Part shown: positions 15,381-22,558 of the stretch, one piece after another
Numbering within the stretch: the stretch's first letter is position 1
Layout: each line of letters starts with the position of its first letter
NCBI RefSeq assembly: GCF_026870175.2
Contig: NZ_CP113977.2
Span: 3,224,001 to 3,288,000 of the forward strand
Direction: 5' to 3'
Source: Flavobacterium aestivum
GTDB taxonomy: Bacteria > Bacteroidota > Bacteroidia > Flavobacteriales > Flavobacteriaceae
Length of the DNA stretch: 64,000 nt
Notes under the pieces: model-generated
What the model saw: only the letters and a program-made list of their open reading frames with translations
Told to the model about the DNA's origin: nothing
Database searches by the model: none
Position numbers and translations under genes: made by a program

Positions 15381-15731
15381 TTACAGATCAGCATAATGTG
15401 CTATCATTTTGTTTACCAATCCATTTTTATCAAAAAACATGATTTCAATTGCCATTTTATTCATAATCGATTTGTAATAAAGTGCCACAGAATTAACTCC
15501 AGATGTCACATCAACCAACTCAAAATGTAAGTCTGGAATCTTTGTTAATGCCTTCTCCCAATAGCCTCTCACTTCTTTTTTTCCTTGGAGTGAACCATTA
15601 TCAATTCCAGCTGCCAATTTTATCATTGGTGTCGTAATTTCAATATCTTCAGAATAATGCTTCATGATATCATCCAAATCATGCGAGTTCCAAGATTCTA
15701 TCCATTTTTGGGCAAACTTTTTTGCTTCCAT
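15381..15731 (-). CDS. NTF2/SnoaL-like protein inside the his operon
   Basis: The product has 116 residues, a single SnoaL/NTF2-like cone-shaped fold. AQKWIESWNSHDLDDIMKHYSEDIEITTP (residues 7-35) is the typical start, followed by LQGKKEVRGYWEKALTKIPDLHFELVDV and a C-terminal sheet strand (IEIMFFDKNGLVNKMIAHY). Members include small-molecule isomerases and many ligand-binding proteins; the substrate is not readable. It sits between hisB and hisH on the same strand (48 nt after hisB, 73 nt before hisH) and is almost certainly cotranscribed with the histidine genes. It is not a known histidine enzyme. Confidence 0.75.
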   Translation of the reverse strand: MEAKKFAQKWIESWNSHDLDDIMKHYSEDIEITTPMIKLAAGIDNGSLQGKKEVRGYWEKALTKIPDLHFELVDVTSGVNSVALYYKSIMNKMAIEIMFFDKNGLVNKMIAHYADL

Positions 15732-19417: not shown

Positions 19418-20275
19418 TTAAAGGACCATTTTCTCGATTGGACATACTAAAATTCCTTCGGCTCCAACATCTTTCAGTTTATCTATTACTTCCCAAAAAG
19501 TATCTTTATCTATTACCGAGTGCACACTACTCCATCCTTCCTGTGCCAAAGGCAACACTGTCAAACTTCTCAAAACTGGAAGAATCTCTCCAACTGCTTC
19601 AATTTTATCATTAGGTACATTCATCAATATGTATCTAGATTTTCTAGCTCTCAGAACTGATTCTATTCTAAATTTTAATGTATCTATTAATTTTTGATTT
19701 GCAGGATCTATCTTTGGAGAAACAGCTAAAACTGCTTCACTTTTTAGAATAACTTCTACTTCTTTCAAGTTGTTTTTAAACAAAGTACTTCCGCTAGATA
19801 CTATATCTACAATTGCATCAGCAAGACCTATATTTGGAGCAATTTCTACAGAACCCGATATTTGGTGAATATCTACACTAAGTCCAAAAGATTCAAAGTA
19901 ATCAGTAACAGTATTAGGGTAAGAAGTTGCTATACGTAACCCATCTAAATCTTTGATGGAATTGTATTTTGATGTTTTTGGAACCGCAACTGAAACCCTG
20001 CATTTTGAAAATCCTAATTTTTGGGCTACTTCAATTCCTTTTCCTTTTTCAACCAAAAGATTGTCTCCAACGATCGCAGCATCTACAACACCGTCAATCA
20101 GGTATTGTGGAATGTCAGAATTTCTAAGGAATAAAACTTCTAAAGGGAAATTAGTTGCTTCAGCTTTTAATTGATCGATTCCATTATCTATGGAAATTCC
20201 ACAATCTTTTAGAATTTGGATACTTTCTTCGTTTAAGCGTCCTGATTTTTGAATTGCAATTTTTAGTGTACTCAT
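19418..20275 (-). CDS. hisG: ATP phosphoribosyltransferase, long form
   Basis: The product has 285 residues, so it is the long HisG with a C-terminal ACT-like regulatory domain (about 210-285: SRYILMNVPNDKIEAVGEILPVLRSLTVLPL...WEVIDKLKDVGAEGILVCPIEKMVL) that binds histidine. The catalytic core starts with IAIQKSGRLNEES and carries the PRPP loop DAIVDIVSSGSTLFKNN near residue 153. It condenses ATP with PRPP, the committed step. It is the first structural gene, directly after the leader peptide and attenuator, so it has both feedback and transcriptional control. Confidence 0.97.
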   Translation of the reverse strand: MSTLKIAIQKSGRLNEESIQILKDCGISIDNGIDQLKAEATNFPLEVLFLRNSDIPQYLIDGVVDAAIVGDNLLVEKGKGIEVAQKLGFSKCRVSVAVPKTSKYNSIKDLDGLRIATSYPNTVTDYFESFGLSVDIHQISGSVEIAPNIGLADAIVDIVSSGSTLFKNNLKEVEVILKSEAVLAVSPKIDPANQKLIDTLKFRIESVLRARKSRYILMNVPNDKIEAVGEILPVLRSLTVLPLAQEGWSSVHSVIDKDTFWEVIDKLKDVGAEGILVCPIEKMVL

Positions 20276-20324: not shown

Positions 20325-20362
20325 GTAATAAAAAACCCGTTTGATGTACTCAAACGGGTTTT
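20325..20362 (-). terminator. his operon attenuator (intrinsic terminator)
   Basis: On the minus strand the arm AAAACCCGTTTG (20362-20351) pairs with CAAACGGGTTTT (20343-20332) across the loop AGTACAT, followed by more T residues. It lies between the leader peptide and hisG. The leader-peptide stretch CTCAAGCG (20406-20399) can pair with CGTTTGAG of the left arm (8 bp, one G.U), giving an anti-terminator that would form when ribosomes stall on the His codons. Confidence 0.9.
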
Positions 20363-20389
20363 AGAATATTGTGAATTACACGCATACCA

Positions 20390-20449
20390 TTAACACATCG
20401 CTTGAGAGCAATTATGAAAATGATGATGATGTAATTGAATTGATAACAT
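20390..20449 (-). CDS. hisL: his operon leader peptide
   Basis: This is a 19-residue ORF, MLSIQLHHHHFHNCSQAMC, that starts at ATG 20447-20449 and ends at TAA 20390-20392. Four consecutive His codons plus one more (five CAT in six codons) make it a classical attenuation leader. A ribosome stalled there for lack of charged tRNA-His would leave the CTCAAGCG segment free to pair with the terminator's first arm; a ribosome reaching the stop codon would cover it. It is too short to be found by ORF length alone. Confidence 0.93.
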   Translation of the reverse strand: MLSIQLHHHHFHNCSQAMC

Positions 20450-20485
20450 AATTTTATAAAATTTGGTAATTCTTTGTTTCTTTTG

Positions 20486-20493
20486 CAAATATA
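20486..20493 (-). promoter_or_regulatory. TATATTTG -7 box of the his operon
   Basis: TATATTTG on the minus strand matches TAnnTTTG. It is 36 nt upstream of the leader-peptide ATG. No good TTG -33 element is visible. It also fits an independent transcript start upstream of the attenuator. Confidence 0.65.
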
Positions 20494-20581
20494 CAGGATA
20501 AAATAATTACCATCCTATTTTTATTTTAACGTTACATTACTAATTTGTTAAATAAATTAACCGGTTTTACTTTTTTATATT

Positions 20582-22558
20582 TTAATACTCCAAAAGCTCT
20601 TTCAATTCTTTTTCAAATCGCCCTTTTGGCAAATATTGATTTTCTAAGGCTTTTGTAAAAGGAATTGGAGAATCTAAACTCGCTACACGTTTTACCGGCG
20701 CATCTAAGTATTGGAAACAATTTTCCATAATTAATGCCGAAATATCGCTGGCAACACCACCAAACATTGAATCTTCCTGACAAATAATTACTCTTCCTGT
20801 TTTCTTAACTGAAGCGTAAATTGCTTCTGTATCTAGAGGCTGCAAGGTTCTTAAATCCAAAACATCGGCTTTAATATCTGGATTTTTATCTAAAGTCTCC
20901 AAAGCCCAATGTACTGCTGCTCCAAAAGAAACAATCGTTACATCAGTTCCTTCTCTTAATAGAGCTGCCTTACCTAATGGTAAAGTATAATAGTCCGTAG
21001 GAACATCTTGAGACAAGCTTCTGTATAATTGTTTGTGCTCAAAGAATAATACTGGATTTGGATCATTTATAGAAGCATTCAATAAACCTTTGGCATCATA
21101 TGGGAATGCTGGGTATACCACCTTTAGTCCTGGTGTTTTGGTAAACCAAGCCTCATTGGTTTGTGAGTGAAAAGGTCCTGCTTGAGTTCCTCCGCCGCAA
21201 GGCATACGAACCACAACATCAGCTTTTTCTAACCAACGGTAATGTGATTTTGCTAATAAATTGACAATTGGATTAAATCCTGTAGAAACAAAATCAGCAA
21301 ATTGCATCTCTACTATCGCTTTATATCCATTAATAGACAATCCCATTCCTGCTGAAACTACTGCACTTTCGCAAATAGGTGTATTGCGTACCCGCTCTTT
21401 TCCAAATTGCGCTACAAAACCATCAGTTATTTTAAAAGCACCACCATATTCTGCAATGTCCTGTCCCATTATAACTGAGTTTTCATATCGCTCCATTGAT
21501 TGTCTCAAACTGCTTGAAATGGCATCTATAAAACGAATATTTTCTGTTTTGTCAGAAGGATGTATTGCTTCATGTGTATATGGTTTGTATACATCATTCA
21601 ATTCTTCCTCATAAGAAGCTACTATTTCAGGCTCTGCATTGGCAATTGCCAAACTTTCTTCTATATCATTTTTTATTTCGGCTCTTACAGCTTCATCATA
21701 TTCTGAAGTAAGAATTTTGTTTCGAATCAAAAAGTTTCTGTAATTGTCAACCGGATCTTTTGCAGCCCACATATCCATCAACTCTTGCGGAACATATTTC
21801 GTACCACTCGCCTCTTCATGACCACGCATTCTAAAAGTTTGAAATTCCAATAAAACCGGACGTGGGTTCTCTATCATAGAAGCTTTCAACTCAGATAATA
21901 AATTATATACTTCTAATAAATTATTCCCATCAACAATATGACTTTCTATTCCGTAACCAACACCTTTATCGGCTAAGTTTTCGCAACGATATTGCTCATT
22001 TGTAGGTGTAGATAATCCGTAACCATTATTTTCAATGACAAACATAACCGGCAATTCCCAAACGGCAGCAATATTCAAAGCTTCATGAAAATCACCCTCA
22101 CTAGTTGCTCCTTCTCCCGTAAAAACAGCTGTTACTTTTCCGTTCTTTTTTAATTTATTAGCTAGAGCTATTCCATCTGCAACCCCCATTTGTGGGCCTA
22201 GATGTGAAATCATTCCAATAATTTTATATTGTTGTGTTCCAAAATGAAAACTTCTATCTCTACCTTTGGTAAATCCATTGGCTTTACCTTGCCATTGTGA
22301 AAATAAACGATACAAAGGAATATCTCTTCCTGTAAAAACGCCTAAATTTCTATGCATCGGCAAAATGTATTCGTCTTGATCTAAAACGGCTGTTACACCA
22401 ACAGAAATGGCTTCTTGTCCGATTCCTGAAAACCATTTAGACACTTTTCCCTGACGAATAAGGATAAGCATTTTTTCCTCTATCAATCTTGGTTTGAGTA
22501 TTCTTTTGTATAAATCTAATAATTTCTCGTCGGAAAGGTTTTTTCTATCAAAATTCAT
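20582..22558 (-). CDS. 2-oxoacid dehydrogenase E1, fused alpha and beta subunits
   Basis: The product has 658 residues. The N-terminal half is E1-alpha with the thiamine-pyrophosphate motif [22 protein letters not shown]...[11 protein letters not shown] (near 140-180); the C-terminal half from about 335 is E1-beta ([32 protein letters not shown], then [23 protein letters not shown]). The motifs fit the branched-chain 2-oxoacid (2-oxoisovalerate) type more than pyruvate dehydrogenase, but the substrate is not certain. No E2 or E3 gene is adjacent. A TATCTTTG box lies upstream, divergent from the oxygenase promoter. Confidence 0.9.

Follow-up and report, generated by a model that had tools for sequence, protein, structure and literature searches.

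Organization of the his leader region

The window analyzed here is a 64,000-nt stretch of the Flavobacterium aestivum genome (contig NZ_CP113977.2, positions 3,224,001 to 3,288,000 of the forward strand), and it carries a his operon on the minus strand. The closest named relatives of its HisG protein are found in Flavobacterium species. We take the operon order to be hisG-hisD-hisC-hisB-(SnoaL-like)-hisH-hisA-hisF-hisIE; the gene names, except those of hisG and the SnoaL-like gene, are based on reading the ORF translations. The SnoaL-like gene (Pfam SnoaL_2, 47.6 bits; 15381-15731, minus strand) lies inside the operon, between hisB and hisH. The features of the region are listed below, with the basis of each in brackets.

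20582-22558, minus strand: dehydrogenase E1 gene, upstream of the leader and in the same direction (ORF list)
20493-20486, minus strand: Bacteroidetes-type -7 promoter element TATATTTG, consensus TAnnTTTG (read from the sequence)
20449-20390, minus strand: leader ORF MLSIQLHHHHFHNCSQAMC, 19 codons and the stop codon TAA (sequence; conservation)
20436-20374, minus strand: predicted pause/protector hairpin (MFE fold)
20431-20414, minus strand: control codons CAT CAT CAT CAT TTT CAT (sequence; stall scan)
20406-20399, minus strand: antiterminator strand CTCAAGCG, within the leader ORF (pairs with the terminator arm)
20362-20332, minus strand: intrinsic terminator hairpin (11 consensus pairs, 3 of them with double changes)
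20362-20350, minus strand: 5' side of the terminator stem, AAAACCCGTTTGA (13 bp by the stem rule used)
20356-20349, minus strand: CGTTTGAG, segment of the terminator 5' arm and partner of CTCAAGCG (pairing)
20349-20345, minus strand: terminator loop GTACA (sequence)
20344-20332, minus strand: 3' side of the terminator stem, TCAAACGGGTTTT (sequence)
20335-20330, minus strand: T run of the terminator (sequence)
20316-20306, minus strand: element D, TGTACTCAAGC, beyond the terminator and before hisG (duplex energy; loop covariation)
20275-19418, minus strand: hisG, first gene of the operon, ATG at 20275 (Pfam HisG, 174 bits)
20275-12440, minus strand: his operon (ORF list; hisG and the SnoaL-like gene by Pfam)

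A preliminary description of this locus had claimed a promoter box, a His leader ORF in which five of six consecutive codons are CAT, and hisG; all of these were found at the correct coordinates, with the leader ATG (20449) 36 nt downstream of the TATATTTG box. The terminator that it had placed between the leader and hisG is also present, with a stem of 13 rather than 12 bp by our stem rule, and the terminator arm does pair with CTCAAGCG as had been proposed. The description did not include the third partner of this arm, element D. By eye, the interval from the dehydrogenase gene to the his promoter (20497-20581) contains no clear terminator, and the his terminator may therefore also end the dehydrogenase transcript.

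The 207-nt leader folded 7.2 SD better than dinucleotide-shuffled sequences, none of which (0/200) was as good. In the MFE structure, the His-codon side (from 20436) pairs with GGTATGCGTGTAATT located after the stop codon (to 20374), and the resulting pause/protector hairpin encloses CTCAAGCG. The consensus fold of 43 loci did not recover this hairpin, and therefore its evidence is weaker. The MFE structure also contained a pairing of the 5'-end segment CAAAGAA (20476-20470) with TTCTTTG (20321-20315), located just before D. The locus's own pairs were better than swapped ones in 60/80 Flavobacterium loci and 44/80 loci of other genera, with a difference of 0.3 kcal/mol, and we set this pairing aside as unproven.

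Conservation of the His leader

Conservation of the His codons among relatives had been suggested as a check of the attenuator, and its outcome was favorable. Using as a criterion an ATG ORF with at least 3 His in 8 residues, located no more than 300 nt from hisG (reached by 1.2% of shuffles), we found a leader before hisG in 79/79 Flavobacterium loci with enough upstream sequence (of 80), 92/96 other genera of the family (one genome per genus), 18/18 loci from other families of the order and 23/24 loci from other orders of the class. When the 300 nt preceding hisG were shuffled 1000 times, 0.1% of the shuffles contained an ATG ORF with 4 or more His in 8 residues. Three of the four family misses have leaders carrying two His (L091, L124, L176), and the fourth has a full leader starting with GTG (L107); within the class-level sample, one locus (L207) had no such leader. 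These counts exclude L038 (too little upstream sequence), L142 (contig end) and L208 (no gene start found). They cover 97 of the 98 other genomes with hisG (G112 was left out), and two further searches, in which hisG was present in 48 and 68 genomes, contributed at most the best 30 loci each.

In the Flavobacterium leaders, the His run and the tail that follows it are nearly invariant, including the third codon positions, while the first codons are variable. An exact TAnnTTTG box was located no more than 80 nt from the leader ATG in all 80 Flavobacterium loci, including the window, in 40/93 loci of other genera, and in 5.4% of shuffles. The promoter box, leader and terminator occurred in the same order in 80/80 Flavobacterium loci, so that a short ORF rich in His codons lies between the promoter and the first gene, and an intrinsic terminator between this ORF and the first gene. 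In the family sample, terminators were called in 94/97 loci, and both terminator and leader in 93.

A model built from the 43 loci had one match in the F. aestivum genome, at hisG (150 of 6190 candidates were scored). Across 119 genomes of the order, the same model gave 34 matches of at least 50 bits, and all 29 of those in genomes with a known hisG place were directly upstream of hisG; the remaining 5 came from genomes that were not searched for hisG. Five of the weaker matches away from hisG (39-45 bits) were examined as potential copies of the element and taken as chance terminators. Four of them had no His-rich ORF. At the fifth (L254; genome G365, contig C15, 47327-47432, minus strand), a 53-aa ORF is preceded by a short ORF, MHKKHFTHHFQQFGLI, and a terminator, and this match is probably due to chance as well. 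Overall, the survey indicates that classical histidine attenuation, in a compact form, precedes nearly all sampled hisG genes of one bacterial class.

Comparative evidence for the antiterminator

The CTCAAGCG/CGTTTGAG pairing was compared across the 43 loci used for the consensus fold. Of 344 cells, 97.4% were paired, in contrast to 18-48% when the strands were slid by 1-3 columns; this percentage is to be read as an upper bound, since the 43 rows were picked by hand because their leaders and terminators were clean. Compensatory changes in the family are confined to one of the eight pairs: all 8 arms with C at the variable position have G opposite in the leader, which gives 8 double-change cells, a number reached in 0/500 shuffles. 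By two other measures, pairs with double changes (1) and pair types (5), the loci did not exceed the shuffles, 488/500 of which reached the observed number. Thus, the check for covarying strands asked for at the outset found the pairing kept, with compensatory change at a single pair.

The loci of other genera had not been selected, and 86 of these 93 had a recognizable arm. The leader strand paired with it over 8/8 nt in 59 loci, over 7 in 24 and over 6 in 3, and all 7 arms reading CGTCTGA have TCAG opposite in the leader. With G-U pairs allowed, on average 20% of the leader shuffles contained an 8-nt match as good. In other orders of the class the two strands have unrelated sequences, for example GGTAAGC with GGCTTACC, and a locus's own arm and leader paired better than the swapped mean in 18/19 loci; the corresponding numbers were 15/16 for the order and 73/95 for the family. 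An antiterminator that excludes the terminator is therefore kept by compensatory change, which in the family involves one pair.

Counted from the first His codon, the antiterminator strand begins at a median of 24, 24, 24 and 27 nt (80, 93, 15 and 18 loci, respectively), and this holds also for strands of unrelated sequence. This constant spacing suits a ribosome waiting at the His codons, as the strand is free with the ribosome in that position and becomes covered once the ribosome has moved to the stop codon.

Folding with a ribosome on the leader

We calculated the fold at the decision point, using RNA that ends with the terminator loop and an assumed ribosome footprint of 27 nt. For the window, the predicted probability of the antiterminator was 0.89 with the A site at His codons 1-4 or at the Phe codon and 0.75 at the last His codon, and it was 0.25-0.41 before the His run, after the run and at the stop codon. 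In the calculation, the position of the ribosome decides between the two mutually exclusive folds, as the preliminary description had it. The 80 Flavobacterium loci gave 0.88 with a stalled ribosome, 0.40 with the ribosome at the stop codon and 0.41 for the unoccupied leader. The value for the stalled state exceeded that for the stop codon by more than 0.2 in 79/80, 84/93 and 31/33 loci, and the reverse was seen in none.

At equilibrium, the full-length leader favors the terminator (0.90-1.00) even with a stalled ribosome. Because the finished terminator wins under these conditions, the antiterminator must act kinetically, while the arm is being transcribed. The strand is predicted to be hidden without a ribosome in 78/80 Flavobacterium loci, yet in only 50/93 loci of other genera, in which the antiterminator reached 0.60 without a ribosome and 0.72-0.85 for stalls before the His codons. 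Given these values, the His specificity in other genera rests on the position of the slow codons.

In the E. coli his leader, used as a control, a stall at any of the sense codons gave the on state (0.61-0.85), and the leader was off with the ribosome at the stop codon (0.26) and when unoccupied (0.19). The method thus recovers the known switch, not its codon specificity.

A probable ribosome-mediated attenuator of the his operon

This element is best explained, with a probability of roughly 0.87, as a compact, ribosome-mediated transcription attenuator controlling the his operon. The sequence of the element, its conservation, its pairing potential and its covariation were observed directly, and from them we infer the switching and its direction. 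Transcription would start just past the TATATTTG box, and a ribosome would enter the 19-residue leader. When His-tRNA is scarce, the ribosome is expected to wait at the CAT codons, where its footprint would open the pause hairpin and keep CTCAAGCG, located approximately 24 nt further on, available for pairing with CGTTTGAG as the arm emerges. This pairing would block the terminator, and RNA polymerase could continue into hisG. When His-tRNA is plentiful, the ribosome would reach the stop codon and cover CTCAAGCG, so that the terminator could form and transcription would end near 20330. Without a ribosome, the pause hairpin of Flavobacterium would hide CTCAAGCG, and termination would be the default.

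Two other explanations were weighed against this attenuator. The RNA could sense something besides leader translation, as a riboswitch or a protein-bound leader would, with the His-rich ORF being incidental. Past the His codons, the nucleotides of the leader tail are conserved, as expected for an RNA binding site; however, the pairing with the terminator arm explains this conservation at least in part, and the His-rich ORFs persist across the class while other sequence varies, with the spacing kept relative to the His codons. In addition, no Rfam family scored over threshold in the window, and only a tRNA did so in 20 relatives, which makes a sensor of this kind very improbable. Even less credit is due to the possibility that the hairpin is merely the end of the dehydrogenase gene and the leader spurious. 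That gene is indeed close and runs in the same direction, but the order of promoter box, leader and terminator holds throughout the Flavobacterium loci and the leader is conserved across the class.

Element D

The partner of D is GTTTGAGTACA (20355-20345), which comprises part of the terminator 5' arm and the loop. The predicted duplex has an energy of -16.1 kcal/mol, and 0/500 shuffles were as good, compared with -12.6 kcal/mol (p 0.03) for the leader strand. Across genera, D varies together with the loop, as in the combinations GTAAAT/ATTTAC, GACAAT/ATTGTT and GCAATT/AATTGC. Covariation was tested with D placed by an anchor that was picked blind to the loop. The test included 72 of 109 loci, leaving out 7 without the arm motif, 12 with too little room and 18 without an anchor, and the anchor requirement favors loci that have D. 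In total, 327/432 positions were paired versus 256.7±7.7 when permuted; 0/2000 permutations reached the observed number, although such counts are not strict probabilities, because loci within the sample are related. For the 80 family loci that offer 30 nt of room or more, the own duplex had an energy of -13.9 kcal/mol, while swapped and shuffled duplexes were weaker by 4.3 and 8.0 kcal/mol, respectively. The own duplex was better than the swapped mean in 63/80 of these loci, 30% ranked in the best 5%, and the median rank was 0.11.

By a stricter rule, D was found in 84/85 Flavobacterium loci, 57/94 other genera and 14/16 loci from other families of the order; it was found in 0/15 genera whose terminator is less than 30 nt from hisG and, by the same stricter rule, in 0/19 loci of other orders. 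Thus, D seems to belong to this order, which we take to be Flavobacteriales, and to have been lost in some genera, and selection seems to have maintained its pairing throughout the order. An action of D on termination is ruled out by its position, because D emerges only after the polymerase has passed the terminator. A selected pairing that is transcribed too late for termination would point to an unrecognized step after read-through.

As to what this step could be, our preference is a weak guess: D may keep the terminator hairpin open on the read-through his mRNA, in cis. On such an RNA, D could take over the terminator arm, with the loop serving as a toehold. We rank this lock, weakly, above an effect at the start of hisG, and the latter above an action of the short RNA in trans. 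A role at the hisG start, in which the arm:D duplex tunes ribosome loading or a polymerase pause, is possible but doubtful. Outside Flavobacterium, the end of D is close to the ATG, with a median of 16 nt in the family (10-90%, 13-35) and 14.5 nt in other families (13-21); in Flavobacterium, however, the distance is 26 nt (10-90%, 24-34), and the 37/94 genera without D by the stricter rule nevertheless keep the hisG of the operon. The terminated leader RNA might alternatively act in trans, its exposed loop and arm pairing with D on the full-length his mRNA and repressing it, which we regard as unlikely. In Sinorhizobium, products of the trp attenuator are known to act in trans, and D, which covaries with the loop, matches loop and arm together, as in antisense loop recognition; yet the same pairing is available in cis, and the short RNA would have to be stable and abundant. 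Slightly less likely still is a broader version, in which the arm and loop would serve three partners in turn and, when histidine is plentiful, the short leader RNA would bind D in trans on the his mRNAs that survive and shut down hisG throughout Flavobacteriales. If true, the attenuator would double as a small regulatory RNA and add a second layer of control to the operon.

Relation to published work

A 2021 transcriptome study of F. psychrophilum (PMC9723704) gives, in its main-text parts, strong clues that operons for amino acids are preceded by leader-peptide attenuators, and it describes a structured 5' element at hisG that is conserved in other Flavobacteriaceae genera and has no Rfam hits. 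Judging from these parts, this is very likely the same element, and his attenuation, which was outlined there for F. psychrophilum, is not new to Bacteroidota; the same parts do not include the leader sequence, the pairing scheme, the class-wide range or D. In the available text of PMC8305728, on the his genes of this superphylum, attenuation is mentioned once, for S. enterica and E. coli. The available text of PMC2965389 (2010) states that, apart from its own finding in Firmicutes, only Proteobacteria and Actinobacteria were known at the time to have leader peptide systems. Among titles and the starts of abstracts, neither the pairing scheme nor D was found; subscription papers, such as Lopatovskaya et al. 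2010 on attenuation across bacteria, lie outside this scope and may include Bacteroidetes his operons. The element is real, and a his attenuator explains it well; its kind was known before, and it has been reported in part. As far as the literature was searched, the compact architecture, the class-wide range and, above all, strand D are new.

Comparison with known attenuators

The E. coli/Salmonella his attenuator (hisL; RF00514, His_leader) shares with the present element a leader ORF with His codons, mutually exclusive hairpins and a terminator before hisG, and in the same calculation both are on when the ribosome stalls and off at the stop codon. The RF00514 model aligns to the window element from its first to its last position, but with 30.4 bits versus a threshold of 49 bits, and the threshold was reached in none of 20 relatives (0/20). 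The public RNA family model thus did not recognize the compact form in the window or in these relatives. Unlike in E. coli, the antiterminator strand here follows the His codons immediately, still within the leader ORF, and its partner is the terminator arm itself; in E. coli, additional hairpins located past the leader are used. The E. coli his leader also lacks D (p 0.41).

An exact 13-mer following the His codons, TCAGGCGATGTGT, is common to 16/80 Flavobacterium leaders and the E. coli his leader, and the E. coli his pause site falls at this 13-mer. The identity to E. coli was reached in 0/2000 shuffles for locus L006 and, for the window (20405-20393), where it is a 9-mer, in 28/2000. The motif TCARGCGATGTGT is present in 76/80 Flavobacterium leaders and 0/94 other genera. 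Since the other genera do not have the motif, convergence is likelier than common descent for the match to E. coli.

A further parallel is offered by the Bacteroid-trp RNA (RF01692), a predicted leader attenuator of Bacteroidetes; within the available text, it is described in PMC2864571 and discussed in PMC6414381. RF01692 has one match in the F. aestivum genome (3933660-3933785), with a Trp-Trp-Trp leader and a strand past the control codons that pairs with the terminator, and does not match the his element. The two differ in amino acid and sequence, and the copy in this genome has no D (p 0.17); nor was D found at the pheA and ilvD attenuators. The leader ORFs of the same genome include those before trp (MKTITNNTWWWNNLRQSS, under the RF01692 match), pheA (MSTNRFYFSNSFYFFFRK) and ilvD (MKLIINLILIVSVIVITTYGKGLV), together with a Thr-rich ORF upstream of a gene that encodes a homoserine dehydrogenase domain. 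Apart from his, these leaders correspond to the trp, Phe, Ile/Val/Leu and Thr pathways, and the set of pathways with leader peptides is much like that of E. coli.
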